A stretch of 24,416 nucleotides of DNA from positions 1 to 24,416 of IMG/VR virus record IMGVR_UViG_3300024513_000082. One strand, 5' to 3'. This document shows positions 3,747 through 23,342 of this stretch, piece after piece; the first letter of the stretch is position 1, and every line of letters begins with the position of its first letter. Position numbers and translations under genes: made by a program. Source of the stretch: a virus. The notes beneath the pieces were generated by a model. The model ran no database searches. It was not told the origin of the DNA and saw only the letters and a list, made by a program, of their open reading frames with translations.

Positions 3747-6095
3747 TTAGATCGAAAAACCGTTGTAGCCAACACCAGCACCTGATTGAGCTAACGCATT
3801 TAAGGTAGCTTGATCATAACCTGATGTTGGTGTATTCAGTAAACCACCAAGTAGATTACCGAACATACCACCAACAGCACCTGTATTACCTAACACCTGA
3901 TTAGCTACATTCTGTCTAGCTCCTAACAAGCCTGCTAAAGCCTCTTGTTGAGCTTGTAAGTTACCAGCTAATCCAAGGCTTTGAAGGTTACCTTGTGCTT
4001 GTAGACCAGCCAAAGAAGGTTGTAGGAAAGCTTGTGTTTGAGCAACGTTACCTTGTAGTGCTTGCTGACCTAACTGACCGGACAACTGAGCCTGTTGTAG
4101 CTGTTGTTGAGTTAGATTCTGGATAGGTGCCAATGCTGCTGCACCTTGACCAATCAACGTACCACGTTCACCCAATGCAGCCTGTCTAGACTGTAGTTCA
4201 CGCTGTAGTTGCTGTTGTGCTATGGCTTGTTCTTGAGCTAACAACTCTGGTGAAGAACCACCAAAAGCTGAACCACTTACACCCAATCTTCCTTGAGCAC
4301 GTAACCTAGCCTCTGTAGCTAATCGTTGACGTTCAATCTCTGGTGCAGACAATGCAGATAGTTTATTGTAGTAATCCCTTGTTAACTGATCTACGTTAGT
4401 CATGTTAGCAGCCTGTGCAGACTGCATAGCTACCTGAGCAAATGGATTATACATTGCTCTAGCATCTTCAGTCAAGACTGTGTTAACAGTACCTGTAGCA
4501 GGATTGTACGTAGTACCGAACAATGAGCCAGTAACACCAAAGGGTGTAAACTCTCCTACCATGTTCGATGCTTGTGTAGCTAATGTATTGTATTGACCAC
4601 CAAGACGGTTAGCTAAGTTAGTGTACTCAGTTTGTGTTAGCTGACCTTGCTGACGTAATTTATCGGCAGCATCCTGAACCATAGCTAAATTAGCACCAGA
4701 ACTAACCAAACCACCTAAAACATTCTGAGCACTTGTATTTGTTAGATCACCGAACAACGATGAAGCAATATTCCCTAATGTACTTGTTAAAGCAGCTGGC
4801 AATCCAGTTAGTGTTGTTAGTAGATTAGTAGGGATTGGTGTTGTTACTGGAGGCACTGCAGGAGGTGTTGTTACTGGAGGCACTGCAGGAGGTGTTGTTA
4901 CTGGAGGCACTGCAGGAGGTGTTGTTACTGGAGGCACTGCAGGAGGTGTTGTTACTGGAGGTACTATTGGTGGTAGTAGTGTTGAAGATAATAATGATCC
5001 AGTATTACTGATAATTTCAGGCAACGCTGTTGTTCCAATTGCTTCTAATGTAGCTAATGTCGATGCAGGTAATCCAGATGCTGTTGCAGCTAACGATTCC
5101 GCCCCACCACTAAGCAAACCACCAGTAGTAGTAGCACCTCCAGTGGCTGCTGCCTCTCCACCTAATAAACTACTACCTAATAAAGCACCACCAACAATAC
5201 CTAGAGCTTGTAACCATCCTTTACCTTCTGATGTATTCGGACTAGCAAGACGAGTACCCGTAGGTTGACCATAGGCATCGTACTGCTGAACAACAATCTT
5301 ATCGCCTTGAACACCAATAGCTTTTTCAATAACCCTATCTTCACCAGTACCTAACTGAACAATGTTTTGATTAGTACCTGTTGTAGGGCTTAGTGATCCA
5401 GTAAGTAGCGTGCCTTGTGGTAGACCAGCATTTAAGAAGAATTGATTAACCTGTGAGACAGGTAAACCAGTAAGGCCTGACAAATCCTCAGCAGTTAAAC
5501 CATAAGTCTTAGCTGTTTGAGCAATGGTTTGTCCGCTAGTATTTAAGTTATTAACAAGGTTGTTGACAACAGAATCTAACGTATTCTGAGGAACCATGTA
5601 GCTATTCATGATAGCTTGGTCTGTCATCAACGGAGATACACCTAGTAGACTAAACTCTTGATTAGACACTGAAGGCTGAATAGCCTTGATAGCGTTACGG
5701 ATCTCTGTTGGTGTACGTCCTTGACTAAGCAATGTATCGATGTATCCTTGCTTAGTTGATAACGATGCTGCAGGGTCCCATGTTAGTCCGAACAAACTGT
5801 ATGTTGTTGGTGCTGGTGTGGAAGCAGGAGGTGTATATACAGGCTCTTGATACACAGGCTCAGCAGTCTGTGTATAAACATTCTCTTGCTGAATAGGCGC
5901 AGGAGCTGGTGTTGGAGCTGGAGCAGGGGCAGGAGCTGGAGGAGCATAACCATTACCCAACATCCAGGTAATATCAGACTGAGGTACTCCGGCACCTAGT
6001 AGTTCATCAACTGTTGTTCCATTGGCGTTAAACCAAGAAATCTTTTGTTGAGGTGTATAGCTAGACCAACCAGAAGGAAGTGCGGGTAGCGCCAT
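3747..6095 (-). CDS. Large Pro-repeat virion protein candidate (782 aa)
   Basis: A 782-aa multi-part protein. It has an N-terminal domain (1-50), an Ala-Pro linker (about 52-66), a helical middle with repeated QxIxxxAxxxGL elements, and a hydrophobic Gly/Ala segment near residues 295-330. A Pro-Thr-Val linker at about 376-420 consists of four identical 9-residue units plus one diverged unit. The C-terminal third is Gln-rich and helical. The linkers suggest separate modules joined by extended spacers. It follows the tail-nozzle gene and a short fibre-like gene, so it is probably a virion protein that sits inside the particle or at the tail tip. No catalytic motif was seen. The start at 6095 is 2 bases past the previous stop. 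Confidence 0.78.
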   Translation of the reverse strand: MALPALPSGWSSYTPQQKISWFNANGTTVDELLGAGVPQSDITWMLGNGYAPPAPAPAPAPTPAPAPIQQENVYTQTAEPVYQEPVYTPPASTPAPTTYSLFGLTWDPAASLSTKQGYIDTLLSQGRTPTEIRNAIKAIQPSVSNQEFSLLGVSPLMTDQAIMNSYMVPQNTLDSVVNNLVNNLNTSGQTIAQTAKTYGLTAEDLSGLTGLPVSQVNQFFLNAGLPQGTLLTGSLSPTTGTNQNIVQLGTGEDRVIEKAIGVQGDKIVVQQYDAYGQPTGTRLASPNTSEGKGWLQALGIVGGALLGSSLLGGEAAATGGATTTGGLLSGGAESLAATASGLPASTLATLEAIGTTALPEIISNTGSLLSSTLLPPIVPPVTTPPAVPPVTTPPAVPPVTTPPAVPPVTTPPAVPPVTTPIPTNLLTTLTGLPAALTSTLGNIASSLFGDLTNTSAQNVLGGLVSSGANLAMVQDAADKLRQQGQLTQTEYTNLANRLGGQYNTLATQASNMVGEFTPFGVTGSLFGTTYNPATGTVNTVLTEDARAMYNPFAQVAMQSAQAANMTNVDQLTRDYYNKLSALSAPEIERQRLATEARLRAQGRLGVSGSAFGGSSPELLAQEQAIAQQQLQRELQSRQAALGERGTLIGQGAAALAPIQNLTQQQLQQAQLSGQLGQQALQGNVAQTQAFLQPSLAGLQAQGNLQSLGLAGNLQAQQEALAGLLGARQNVANQVLGNTGAVGGMFGNLLGGLLNTPTSGYDQATLNALAQSGAGVGYNGFSI
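4837..4971 (-). repeat. 27-bp in-frame tandem repeat (4 perfect copies plus 1 diverged)
   Basis: Units begin at 4837, 4864, 4891, 4918 and 4945. The first four are identical over 27 bases and the fifth diverges in its second half. Each unit encodes nine residues of the Pro-Val-Thr-Thr-Pro-Pro-Ala type, so copy-number change would alter linker length without a frameshift. Identity at the DNA level suggests recent slippage or recombination. Confidence 0.97.
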
Positions 6096-20486: not shown

Positions 20487-21743
20487 TCACCAACCTATCG
20501 TAGTGTCTAGGACTTCATACTCTTCTTGGTCCAGATTCTGATTCCAATCCGCTACTTGAATCTGGTCAATGTAACTTAACGCATCAATTAAGTCATCATG
20601 TGTCTTAGGATCAGGGAACTGCATAAGTTGATCTACAAACTTATTATTCCAATCACCTTCATTCAACACAATCCTACCGTGTTCAAAGCGTCCCTGTAAT
20701 GACCAAACAATCCTATCTGCTTTCTTCTTATTACCGTGTGTTAGCTCTTCAATGCGAGGATAATAATTTAATCTTCTCATCAAATCATTCATATAAGGCA
20801 TCACTGCATTCTTCAGTGAACCTTTCTCAATCCCTACTGCATTAACTCTGTAGTCCTTTGCAGCCTTTAGAATCCTCACTGCTGTTTCTCGGACATCCCA
20901 TCTACCGTGTTGAATGTCAGCAACCCACCAGCCTTTAGTATTGATCTTAACAATAGCTATCGCTGTGTCATCAAGCTTTTTATTCTTCGTTTGATTCGTC
21001 TGAGATGAATCGCTGAAACCACATAGATCCACCGCAATAAAGTAGTTACCTTCTTCCGGCTCTTCTTCACTGATCTTAATCCATTCATCTTTGAAGATCT
21101 CCGACTGTGCTGCCTCAAACGAAGCCATAAACTCTTGTCTAAAAGCAAAGCTAGACATCGAACCTCTAGCTGCTTCAATCTCTAAAGGATCTAACAATGG
21201 ATTATCAAAGCTAGTGAAGTGCCAAGACTTGTAATCTTTATCTTTACCTGAATCACCTACTTTGTACAATTCATAAAAGTGATTCCTACCCATTGGTGTT
21301 CCAATGAACATTGCTCTACCCTTCTGATCCGCTAAAGCAGGTCTAAGGATTTGTTCGAACACCTGTGGCTTCATGTCTGCGTACTCATCCATCACTAAGT
21401 ACTTCAAACTAACACCACGCATAGTCTCTGGTCTGTCAGCACCCTTTAGCGATATCATTGCACCGTTGATCAACGTAATCTGCATGTTATTGACATGACT
21501 ATTCTTGATCACTGTATGGCCTAGCTCTAACAGCGTAGACCACATAATATCCCTAGCTTGTCCCTGTGTTGGGGCTACATACCAGACATGGCCTTTCTCA
21601 GTCTGTAGTGCCTCAATAATCAATGTCCAAGCAGCTAACCTTGATTTACCTGTACGTCTACCAGCAGCGATGATCTTAAACCTTGCTGGATCTTTGAAGA
21701 CCTCTTGCTGCCAAGGAAGAAGAGATACCGTCAAATTACTCAT
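20487..21743 (-). CDS. terL: Terminase large subunit (418 aa)
   Basis: A 418-aa packaging motor. The ATPase half has Walker A GRRTGKS (28-34), Walker B YLVMDEYAD (115-123, catalytic E120) and a coupling IGTP motif (147-150). The nuclease half has AVDLCGFSD (D239), VGIEKG (303-308) and THDDLIDALSY (381-391), supplying acidic metal ligands. The protein pumps DNA into the prohead through the portal and cuts it. Its ATG overlaps the small-terminase stop as ATGA, so the two subunits are coupled. The length is short but within the family range. All motifs are intact. Confidence 0.97.
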   Translation of the reverse strand: MSNLTVSLLPWQQEVFKDPARFKIIAAGRRTGKSRLAAWTLIIEALQTEKGHVWYVAPTQGQARDIMWSTLLELGHTVIKNSHVNNMQITLINGAMISLKGADRPETMRGVSLKYLVMDEYADMKPQVFEQILRPALADQKGRAMFIGTPMGRNHFYELYKVGDSGKDKDYKSWHFTSFDNPLLDPLEIEAARGSMSSFAFRQEFMASFEAAQSEIFKDEWIKISEEEPEEGNYFIAVDLCGFSDSSQTNQTKNKKLDDTAIAIVKINTKGWWVADIQHGRWDVRETAVRILKAAKDYRVNAVGIEKGSLKNAVMPYMNDLMRRLNYYPRIEELTHGNKKKADRIVWSLQGRFEHGRIVLNEGDWNNKFVDQLMQFPDPKTHDDLIDALSYIDQIQVADWNQNLDQEEYEVLDTTIGW

Positions 21744-22225
21744 TCTTCTTCTTTATCGTAATCAATTAGTGTAGTCTCAACGTCTACAGGCTCATGTTCA
21801 ATCATCTCAACTGGTTTGTCGTTAATACCAGTGATGTTTATAGTGATTGCTTTAGCCCCTGATGCTGTTCCTTTATCCTCAAAGTAAGATACTGGAAGCA
21901 TCCGATCCATACACATCTTAAGCGCTGCAATCTGATCCTTATCATTATCATCTAATGCTTTATGTACTATCTTTCTGATAATCGCATTAGAGTGTGTCAG
22001 CAACAGCGAAGCAGTGAACTCTTTAATCCTTGCTGCTTCTCCTGGTGGTCTACCTCTTTTCTCTCTCTTAATGTACTTCTGTACTTCTTCCTTCTTAGGA
22101 CGACCTCTAGATCTCTTCTTTTTCGCAGGCACTTTCTTCTCTTCATTGACTGCCAAGACATCCTGGCTGACCGATGAAGGTAGCGAACAATCCTCAGTAG
22201 GAGAAGTAATTTTAATTTCTGACAT
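21740..22225 (-). CDS. terS: Terminase small subunit candidate with two AT-hook-like motifs (161 aa)
   Basis: A 161-aa protein directly upstream of the large terminase, first gene of the late operon, with an acidic C-terminus as in many small terminases. The first 30 residues are polar. Residues 35-65 are very basic and hold two AT-hook cores, RSRGRPKK (38-45) and KRGRPPGE (57-64). Residues 66-115 form a helical part (FTASLLLTHSNAIIRKIVHK) that could provide oligomerisation. The small subunit recognises phage DNA and starts packaging. The assignment rests on position, size and basic DNA-binding region. ATG 22225 has GAGG with 7 bases of spacing. Confidence 0.82.
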   Translation of the reverse strand: MSEIKITSPTEDCSLPSSVSQDVLAVNEEKKVPAKKKRSRGRPKKEEVQKYIKREKRGRPPGEAARIKEFTASLLLTHSNAIIRKIVHKALDDNDKDQIAALKMCMDRMLPVSYFEDKGTASGAKAITINITGINDKPVEMIEHEPVDVETTLIDYDKEEE

Positions 22226-22388: not shown

Positions 22389-22421
22389 GTATATTATAGC
22401 ATATTTTTTAAGTTTTGTCAA
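22386..22421 (-). promoter_or_regulatory. Consensus sigma-70 late promoter
   Basis: On the minus strand TTGACA (22421-22416) and TATAAT (22398-22393) are separated by exactly 17 bases, with a TGC extension before the -10, so the match is 12/12 plus an extended -10. Predicted initiation is about 22386. It reads into the small terminase and the whole late block, and must use host RNA polymerase since no phage polymerase or phage-type promoter is visible. Confidence 0.92.
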
Positions 22422-22473: not shown

Positions 22474-22618
22474 AGTCTTTAGAGGCTATGGCGGGACTCC
22501 ATTTACATGGTGTCAGAGGCTCCGCAGAGGCTTTATTACTAAGCTATTGATTTTATTAGATATTATTAGATAGACTGTTTAGTCTTTAGAGACTTCCATT
22601 TTAGCTTTTTTTGAGGCT
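22474..22618. repeat. Iteron-like GAGGCT repeats
   Basis: AGAGGCT occurs at 22481, 22515 and 22526, with variants AGAGACT at 22588 and TGAGGCT at 22612. Two copies share a longer form, AGTCTTTAGAG(G/A)CT, at 22474-22487 and 22581-22594. Around 22572-22594 three arms (AGACT, AGTCT, AGACT) could form two alternative hairpins. The spacing is irregular. They may be sites for a phage initiator or regulator. Confidence 0.65.
22544..22572. repeat. AT-rich 10-bp tandem repeat, possible DNA unwinding element
   Basis: TTATTAGATA occurs twice without a gap (22553-22562 and 22563-22572), and the preceding bases (from 22544) are a degenerate third copy. AT-rich tandem repeats beside DnaA boxes are the typical unwinding element of bacterial origins. 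The distance to the first DnaA box is about 105 bases. The function is inferred from this arrangement. Confidence 0.6.
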
Positions 22619-22677
22619 AGGTAGCACCACAACATTTACACTACAACCACACCCCTCCCCCTATACTGCACTGCAAC

Positions 22678-22761
22678 ATATCCACAGGTTATACAGAGTT
22701 ATCCACAGGATACAGCATAGTTATCCACAGCTTATCCACAGATATCGTAGAGTTATCCACA
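22678..22761 (+). promoter_or_regulatory. Cluster of DnaA boxes (putative replication origin)
   Basis: Four exact TTATCCACA boxes lie at 22699-22707, 22721-22729, 22732-22740 and 22753-22761. A one-mismatch copy (ATATCCACA) lies at 22678-22686 and a weaker two-mismatch one at 22689-22697. All have the same orientation. Starts of the five better sites are 21, 22, 11 and 21 bases apart, multiples of about one helical turn. This is the consensus box bound by bacterial DnaA. No GATC (Dam) site occurs from about 22240 to 23045. The cluster sits where transcription diverges. Confidence 0.88.
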
Positions 22762-22773
22762 GGCTAGGTAGTT

Positions 22774-22793
22774 TACTGTATATCTGTACAGTC
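22774..22793. promoter_or_regulatory. LexA-type SOS box
   Basis: TACTGTATATCTGTACAGTC has the exact CTGT-N8-ACAG core and matches the E. coli LexA consensus TACTGTATATATATACAGTA at 17 of 20 positions. It begins 13 bases after the last DnaA box. I see no good -35/-10 pair overlapping it on either strand, so it may control a weak promoter or act on the origin itself. Confidence 0.65.
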
Positions 22794-22839
22794 TGCACTG
22801 GATTGGTGCATAGGCTACGAAGGTTGCGGAGGTGTATCT

Positions 22840-22908
22840 ATGAAGCACCCCACAGAAGTACTTCGAAGATACTTCAAAGCCTGCACAATCTGCACTGGTT
22901 CCACGTGA
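22840..22908 (+). CDS. Possible 22-aa leader peptide overlapping the parS-like site
   Basis: A short frame encodes MKHPTEVLRRYFKACTICTG plus two residues (22 aa). It is preceded by GGAGGT with 6 bases of spacing, the best ribosome-binding site in the region. It has a CTIC (CxxC) motif. Its stop codon lies inside the parS-like site. It starts 46 bases after the LexA-type box. Such a small frame can occur by chance, so the claim rests on the ribosome site. If real it may be a regulatory peptide or leader for the genes downstream. Confidence 0.35.
   Translation: MKHPTEVLRRYFKACTICTGST
22855..22875. repeat. Adjacent palindromes GAAGTACTTC and GAAGATACTTC
   Basis: A perfect 10-bp palindrome (22855-22864) abuts an 11-base dyad with a 3-base centre (22865-22875). 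Together they put four GAAG/CTTC half-sites at near-helical spacing, 20 bases left of the parS-like site. They could be an operator for a dimeric protein. Confidence 0.55.
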
Positions 22909-22912
22909 AACA
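22897..22912. promoter_or_regulatory. parS-like centromere site
   Basis: GGTTCCACGTGAAACA matches the bacterial chromosomal parS form TGTTCCACGTGAAACA at 15 of 16 positions; only the first base differs. Chromosomal ParB proteins of most bacteria bind this site. No ParA or ParB gene is visible in the window. A second dyad, TGTTGT-N6-ACAACA, follows at 22914-22931. Confidence 0.75.
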
Positions 22913-22913
22913 A

Positions 22914-22970
22914 TGTTGTATTCGAACAACACTACCGTTCATCCTTGGATATTGTCCGTTCGTCGGATAG
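22914..22970. repeat. Dyad and phased repeats right of the parS-like site
   Basis: There is an inverted repeat TGTTGT-ATTCGA-ACAACA at 22914-22931, then CCGTTC at 22935 and 22956, again 21 bases apart, each followed by a GGATA element. The dyad ATCC-TT-GGAT lies at 22941-22950, and a small hairpin TCCG/CGGA with a five-base loop at 22955-22967. No gene lies here. Possible operator elements of the rightward promoter. Confidence 0.5.
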
Positions 22971-22983
22971 GCCTGAAATGCCG

Positions 22984-23019
22984 TTGACAACGCAAAATCA
23001 GTTAGTTAGTATGCATACA
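22984..23019 (+). promoter_or_regulatory. Rightward sigma-70 promoter with overlapping operator
   Basis: TTGACA at 22984-22989 is followed after 17 bases by TAGTAT at 23007-23012 (4/6 match), so it is weaker than the late promoters. A perfect 10-bp palindrome GTATGCATAC (23009-23018) overlaps the -10 and start. AGTTAGTATGC at 23004-23014 matches a unit of the late 11-bp array at 10 of 11 bases, which suggests the same protein binds both promoters. Confidence 0.7.
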
Positions 23020-23045: not shown

Positions 23046-23342
23046 ATGCTTTTAATCAGTAAGACATATGACGTAGTAACCGAAGAATCAGCAGAAGACG
23101 GTGAAACAGCGGAGGATGGCTTTGTGTTCGAATTCGAAGAATTCTCATTCAGAGACTTAGTTCGTCACTTACGTTACTTTCCGCACTTATCCAGTTCTGT
23201 CATTACACCGGACACTTGGGTATCATCGGAGAGTGAGCAGGATTACATGACAGGGGAATACAGAACAGAGCATCTACATTATGTTGGACCAGCTAATAAA
23301 CAAAAGTACTGGGTAAAAGCTTTAAAGCTTGCTTTCAAGTAA
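23046..23342 (+). CDS. Acidic early protein (98 aa), unknown function
   Basis: The first rightward gene, with AGGAG 8 bases before the ATG and a promoter 60 bases upstream. The 98-aa product has a very acidic N-terminal third (EESAEDGETAEDGFVFEFEE), then FRDLVRHLRYFP and an ending with DYMTGEYRTEHLHYVG followed by KQKYWVKALKLAF. I recall the TGEYRTEHLHY-type motif from small uncharacterised phage proteins, but cannot name the family. Early position and acidity would fit a host-takeover or DNA-mimic role; this is speculation. It is followed after 33 bases by the cysteine-rich gene, likely in one operon. Confidence 0.82.
   Translation: MLLISKTYDVVTEESAEDGETAEDGFVFEFEEFSFRDLVRHLRYFPHLSSSVITPDTWVSSESEQDYMTGEYRTEHLHYVGPANKQKYWVKALKLAFK

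Follow-up and report, generated by a model that had tools for sequence, protein, structure and literature searches.

A DnaA-box array in an uncultured podovirus-like phage is one allele of an exchangeable intergenic slot and may belong to a decoy cassette for host regulators

Results

The DnaA-box array lies between two divergent gene blocks

We analyzed a 24,416-base, possibly incomplete record of an uncultured bacterial virus (this whole stretch is called the window below). The array of DnaA boxes sits in an intergenic region that separates a leftward block, containing the gene at the terS position, TerL, the portal, the major head protein, and other virion genes, from a rightward early block. 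The features of this region are the following:

21740-22225, minus strand: gene at the small-terminase position, named terS by position alone, without a PHROG match; left border of the region
22393-22421, minus strand: predicted sigma-70 promoter from a consensus scan (TTGACA-17-TATAAT, 12/12, with TG), facing the terS/virion operon
22530-22590, no strand: AT-rich segment, the least stable of the region by nearest-neighbour stability; possible unwinding element
22651-22664, plus strand: conserved ACCCCTCCCCCTAT, left edge of the exchangeable slot as defined by comparison of relatives
22660-22680, plus strand: CCTATACTGCACTGCAACATA, a motif common to Burkholderiaceae-type promoter regions, from its pile-up of host matches
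22678-22686, plus strand: DnaA box with one mismatch, ATATCCACA, by sequence
22689-22697, plus strand: degenerate DnaA-like box TTATACAGA, by sequence, fitting the next slot of the ~10.5-bp helical register
22699-22707, plus strand: exact DnaA box TTATCCACA
22721-22729, plus strand: exact DnaA box TTATCCACA
22732-22740, plus strand: exact DnaA box TTATCCACA
22753-22761, plus strand: exact DnaA box TTATCCACA, the last of the array
22775-22791, no strand: LexA (SOS) box ACTGTATATCTGTACAG, CTGT-N8-ACAG, of the beta/gammaproteobacterial type, by pattern and host copies
22897-22912, no strand: parS-like ParB site GGTTCCACGTGAAACA, 15/16 to TGTTNCACGTGNAACA, by sequence, conservation, and a host copy
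22984-23012, plus strand: predicted sigma-70 promoter from a consensus scan (TTGACA-17-TAGTAT, 10/12), facing the early operon
23046-23342, plus strand: first early open reading frame; right border of the region

A first-pass annotation of this DNA had described four exact boxes and one near match in a single orientation, with start spacings of 21, 22, 11, and 21, and both statements were confirmed at 22678-22761 on the plus strand, the spacings following from the box positions. All four exact boxes are held within 63 bp. The annotation had also put the chance expectation of an exact 9-mer below one per window; the computed value is 0.31, while four were observed, and none of 100 shuffles gave four. 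The helical phasing that it proposed was equally found, and the degenerate TTATACAGA is in register as well. We also scanned viral contigs for three clustered exact DnaA boxes, permitting spacings of 10-22 only, and recovered at least 120 stretches (L254-L372), in which start spacings show clear peaks inside that range at 11-12 and 21-22 bp. Therefore, such phasing is not special to the window. The same array was seen again in five independent metagenome contigs (L001, L002, L122, L127, and L133). An open frame of 119 amino acids (22611-22970, plus strand) crosses the array; the repeats give it many H and R residues, and it looks spurious.

The array lies between both predicted promoters, about 220-255 bp away, and overlaps neither of them. 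By nearest-neighbour stability, a distance of about 90-150 bp separates the array from the closest unusually unstable DNA, the segment at 22530-22590, which is also found in a relative, L006, that has no DnaA array. Two sites that were absent from the first-pass annotation lie past the last DnaA box, the LexA-type box at 14 bp and the parS-like palindrome at 136 bp. The latter matches 15/16 positions of the chromosomal-type parS consensus TGTTNCACGTGAAACA (PMC7022226) and is conserved in relatives. In 45 sequences picked only by their 6-bp core CACGTG, this site was recognized as a conserved island, the 14-bp GTTYCACGTGRAAC. An Rfam scan gave no match. A reading of CCCTCCCC as an FtsK KOPS was considered and is not claimed.

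Relatives exchange the array for other sites

Relatives were collected via TerL, the terS-position protein, and the early phrog_1392 protein, and the slot was compared in 63 distinct syntenic regions of sufficient length with terS at least 75% identical. Results showed that the alternatives begin directly 3' of the conserved ACCCCTCCCCCTAT. The slot between the terS and early operons is thus swappable, and the DnaA array represents one of its alleles. DnaA arrays were found in 15 of the 63 regions, in plus orientation in 5 (window included) and in minus orientation in 10. The palindrome ATTTCATAATGTGAAAT was present in 13 regions, two of them with a DnaA array in addition, and 4 of these 13 carry an NrdR-like pair, 31 bp apart (4/63). 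Fur-like boxes occupy 4/63 regions; array C, made of ATTGTC-N8-GACAAT palindromes with a 39-bp period, 8/63 (L103, L131, L179, and others); array D, a 10-11-bp repeat GYAAGATAGC, 15/63 (L102, L144, L145, and others); and allele type F, which has other repeats and lacks parS or a host-like array, 7/63. Some slot alleles are tandem repeats. Beside the slot, a parS-like site was found in 43 and a LexA box in 22 of the 63 relatives. More distant relatives carry DnaA arrays too, three of which (L048, L237, and L238) have both parS and DnaA boxes. No gene clearly tracks the slot allele in the small sample of 15 records that we compared.

The sites match regulatory regions of bacterial chromosomes

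We searched the stretch 22640-22960 by BLAST, with no motif named, against 393 Burkholderiaceae-type (Pseudoduganella family) genomes. The 132 matches formed separate pile-ups at 22660-22680, at the DnaA array, at the LexA box, and at parS, with only 0-2 matches in 22800-22875 and 22920-22960. Host neighbours were inspected for a sample of the matches, and several neighbours of Fur-box and LexA-box matches could not be named. Six of the seven loci examined for the DnaA array are oriC, between dnaA and dnaN, and the seventh lies between parA and parB. The LexA-box matches were upstream of imuA (and cho) in 2 of 5 loci examined, and one parS match is an identical 20-mer adjoining host mnmG. In 385 Paracoccus-family genomes, the LexA and parS pile-ups were gone and the DnaA pile-up was still there.

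The largest host pile-up, with about 42 matches, belongs to CCTATACTGCACTGCAACATA, whose host copies are found 20-25 bp upstream of small open reading frames and of a conserved protein of about 460 amino acids without an NCBIfam match. The candidate reading of 22660-22680 as a PhaR site was dropped, as the neighbouring host genes do not show a PhaR context.

The remaining alleles were tested with one joined query in the same unbiased host search, which gave pile-ups at three Fur-like boxes and at the aceE/aceA palindrome. In the loci sampled, the Fur-box matches adjoin TonB receptors, a FecI-type sigma factor, Fe-SOD, and ABC binding proteins, the match of the NrdR-like pair precedes nrdA, and the palindrome matches precede host aceE and isocitrate lyase genes. 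For arrays C and D, the one genome family searched yielded no host pile-up; a single C-like match upstream of an ABC transporter gene (L569) is too little for naming a regulator. Taken as sequence matches, these data make the reading of the region as a mosaic of host-regulator sites well supported. Moreover, as relatives exchange the sites for those of other host regulators (of iron, ribonucleotide reductase, and carbon metabolism), the array seems to be one form of an exchangeable regulator-capture device and not just an origin of replication.

From the sites alone, we infer that the host belongs to a betaproteobacterium-like group, with a gammaproteobacterium as the second candidate. A TerL-based host search of genome contigs returned only phage contigs in unrelated metagenome-assembled genomes (MAGs), plus distant terminases. 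The phage-group contigs (L389-L395) were in MAGs labelled Sphingobacteriales, Verrucomicrobiales, Acidimicrobiaceae, Flavobacteriales, and Euryarchaeota, and with labels so scattered the bins give no host.

Gene content of the phage family

The relative G002, of 39,963 bases, ends in direct repeats (the first 100 bases are found again near the end), and its gene products include a T7-like primase-helicase, PolA, a 5'-3' exonuclease, ThyX, and a class II ribonucleotide reductase. The T7-like primase-helicase and PolA are common to relatives with and without DnaA arrays. Among 16 related records, fragments included, we found neither ParB (PF02195), the phage's own partition protein expected of a phage-plasmid, nor a tyrosine recombinase integrase (PF00589), expected of an integrating temperate phage. 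The first-pass description of a podovirus-like phage whose structural genes look lytic was supported insofar as the phage appears podovirus-like and non-integrating. A search for cultured relatives found no close phage record. Among the structural genes of the window, a 782-amino-acid protein (3747-6095, minus strand) contains tandem PPVTTPPAV repeats.

Discussion

A decoy cassette as the preferred explanation

The window holds an oriC-like DnaA array, a LexA box, a chromosomal-type parS, and one further host promoter motif, and we give an even chance to the idea that together they would form a cassette of host-regulator sites acting by titration, as a multicopy decoy. Such a mechanism is proposed from sites that exist, are conserved, are exchanged between relatives, and are host-like, in a phage family whose sampled members lack ParB and integrase. 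As the phage genome multiplies, its sites would be bound in the infected cell and would sequester DnaA, LexA, and ParB of the host (in relatives NrdR, Fur, and others), acting in trans by depletion and not in cis. Such depletion would hold back new rounds of host replication and free repressed host functions of use to the phage. Titration would explain why the identity of the regulator changes with position and phage genes constant. Direct precedents exist, as a Fur-regulated gene is derepressed by multicopy Fur boxes (PMC10253897) and chromosomal box clusters titrate DnaA (PMC12371093).

Extending this idea to the whole family, we tentatively suggest, with confidence a little short of even, that these podovirus-like phages use a modular DNA sponge, swapping host-operator cassettes that deplete chosen regulators with no protein encoded. 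The cassettes would be oriC-type DnaA arrays, NrdR pairs, Fur boxes, and the aceE/aceA operator, with a ParB site as a usual and a LexA box as a frequent companion. LexA and parS are each represented by a single site, which fits titration poorly. Also against this explanation stand the common arrays C and D, for which the genome family searched showed no matching host motif, and allele type F. The location between divergent promoters also fits a control in cis.

Alternative explanations

According to this control in cis, host DnaA, LexA, Fur, and NrdR would adjust the two divergent phage promoters and thereby let the infection sense replication state, DNA damage, iron, or dNTP supply. Every regulator found is a physiological sensor, the slot lies between the two predicted promoters, and phages controlled by LexA, CTXphi and GIL01, are known. 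The distance of the DnaA array from the predicted promoters argues against it, as do the LexA box, which no predicted promoter overlaps, and the swapping of regulator identity while phage genes and position stay. We consider regulation in cis unlikely, though more probable than the alternatives that follow.

The first-pass annotation had favored a host-dependent DnaA origin. In this reading, DnaA would bind the array and open the origin; with parS as a piggy-back partition site in addition, the phage may persist in a plasmid-like state, borrowing host DnaA, ParB, and LexA. Part of this claim stood, as the boxes are consensus boxes, clustered, phased, in one orientation, resembling oriC and matching host oriC in most loci examined. 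The unstable DNA at 22530-22590, the GC-skew minimum of G002 at the divergent intergenic region, the conservation of parS though phage ParB was not found, and the renewed appearance of DnaA arrays in distant relatives are also in its favor. The pattern of conservation speaks against the claim as stated: an origin role predicts that the array is kept with the same replication genes, and 48/63 relatives lack it in the slot while the replication genes are common to the alleles, so an origin is less favored. The unstable segment is present in an allele without boxes, and neither integrase nor partition protein was found. In addition, the phage has its own primase-helicase, so there is no obvious need for DnaA to load the host helicase. 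GC skew, proposed as a check of the origin, was rejected as evidence, since its minimum falls in this intergenic region even where the allele has no DnaA boxes, and since it tracks gene orientation as well. We conclude that the array probably does not serve mainly as a host-dependent origin, and rate the combined origin and partition reading as quite improbable, although this allele may have an origin role.

Finally, the arrays could be iterons that bind phage-encoded proteins, their likeness to host motifs being coincidental, an idea suggested by the unmatched arrays C and D and by the tandem-repeat alleles, but one that we regard as very improbable given that the unbiased search, which had internal controls, recovered exact motifs of several unrelated host regulators, whose chromosomal copies occupy oriC or the promoters one would expect, and that no phage gene clearly tracks the allele in our small sample.

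Relation to known systems

The putative decoy cassette shares features with several known systems. Bacterial oriC of the Burkholderiaceae type (dnaA-dnaN) provides the best chromosomal matches of the array and has the same consensus boxes, phased and in one orientation, whereas the phage array is an optional allele, lies near a LexA box and parS, and has no clearly adjacent unwinding element. The LexA-controlled phages CTXphi and GIL01 also have a LexA box of the host, and the phage-plasmids P1 and N15 a parS-type site; however, the repressed promoter is identified in the former, and the latter encode ParA/ParB themselves. Neither was found here, and in the phages studied here several host sites are bundled and swapped. 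As in datA and DARS of E. coli, which lower free DnaA (PMC12371093), dense high-affinity boxes are found outside an origin, but the phage sites, with titration as their proposed effect, are on a replicating phage genome and are replaced by sites of other regulators in relatives. The multicopy plasmids of the Fur titration assay (FURTA), in which added operator copies derepress a host regulon (PMC10253897), are similar in principle, while the phage cassette is natural and bundles several regulators.

The individual parts are therefore already known, as oriC, datA, SOS boxes on phages, and parS on plasmids and phage-plasmids. Known tools of phage takeover are proteins and RNAs. In a limited search of the open-licence literature, we found no paper on phage operator decoys, nor on an exchangeable bundle of host operators in a phage without the matching proteins. 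Any newness lies in the bundled, swappable arrangement and hinges on confirmation of its function. If true, a DNA-only device capturing several unrelated host regulators at once and re-aimed by cassette swaps would add a new strategy of host takeover and would mirror, in nature, the operator-titration assays of the laboratory. The natural alleles offer a ready comparison set, with one phage backbone and different target regulators, which makes the decoy hypothesis easy to test. The sites also suggest which host group this uncultured phage family probably infects.

We also looked at parS and DnaA boxes in other viral contigs. A general viral pairing of the two was rejected, as 0 of the 120 perfect-parS stretches listed had two exact DnaA boxes within 600 bp. 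The perfect 16-bp chromosomal parS was found in at least 120 viral contig stretches (L405-L524), compared to 33 (L525-L557) for a control palindrome with rearranged core; some of these stretches may be prophage flanks or misfiled chromosome, and some hold 5-12 sites (L420, L447, and L490).
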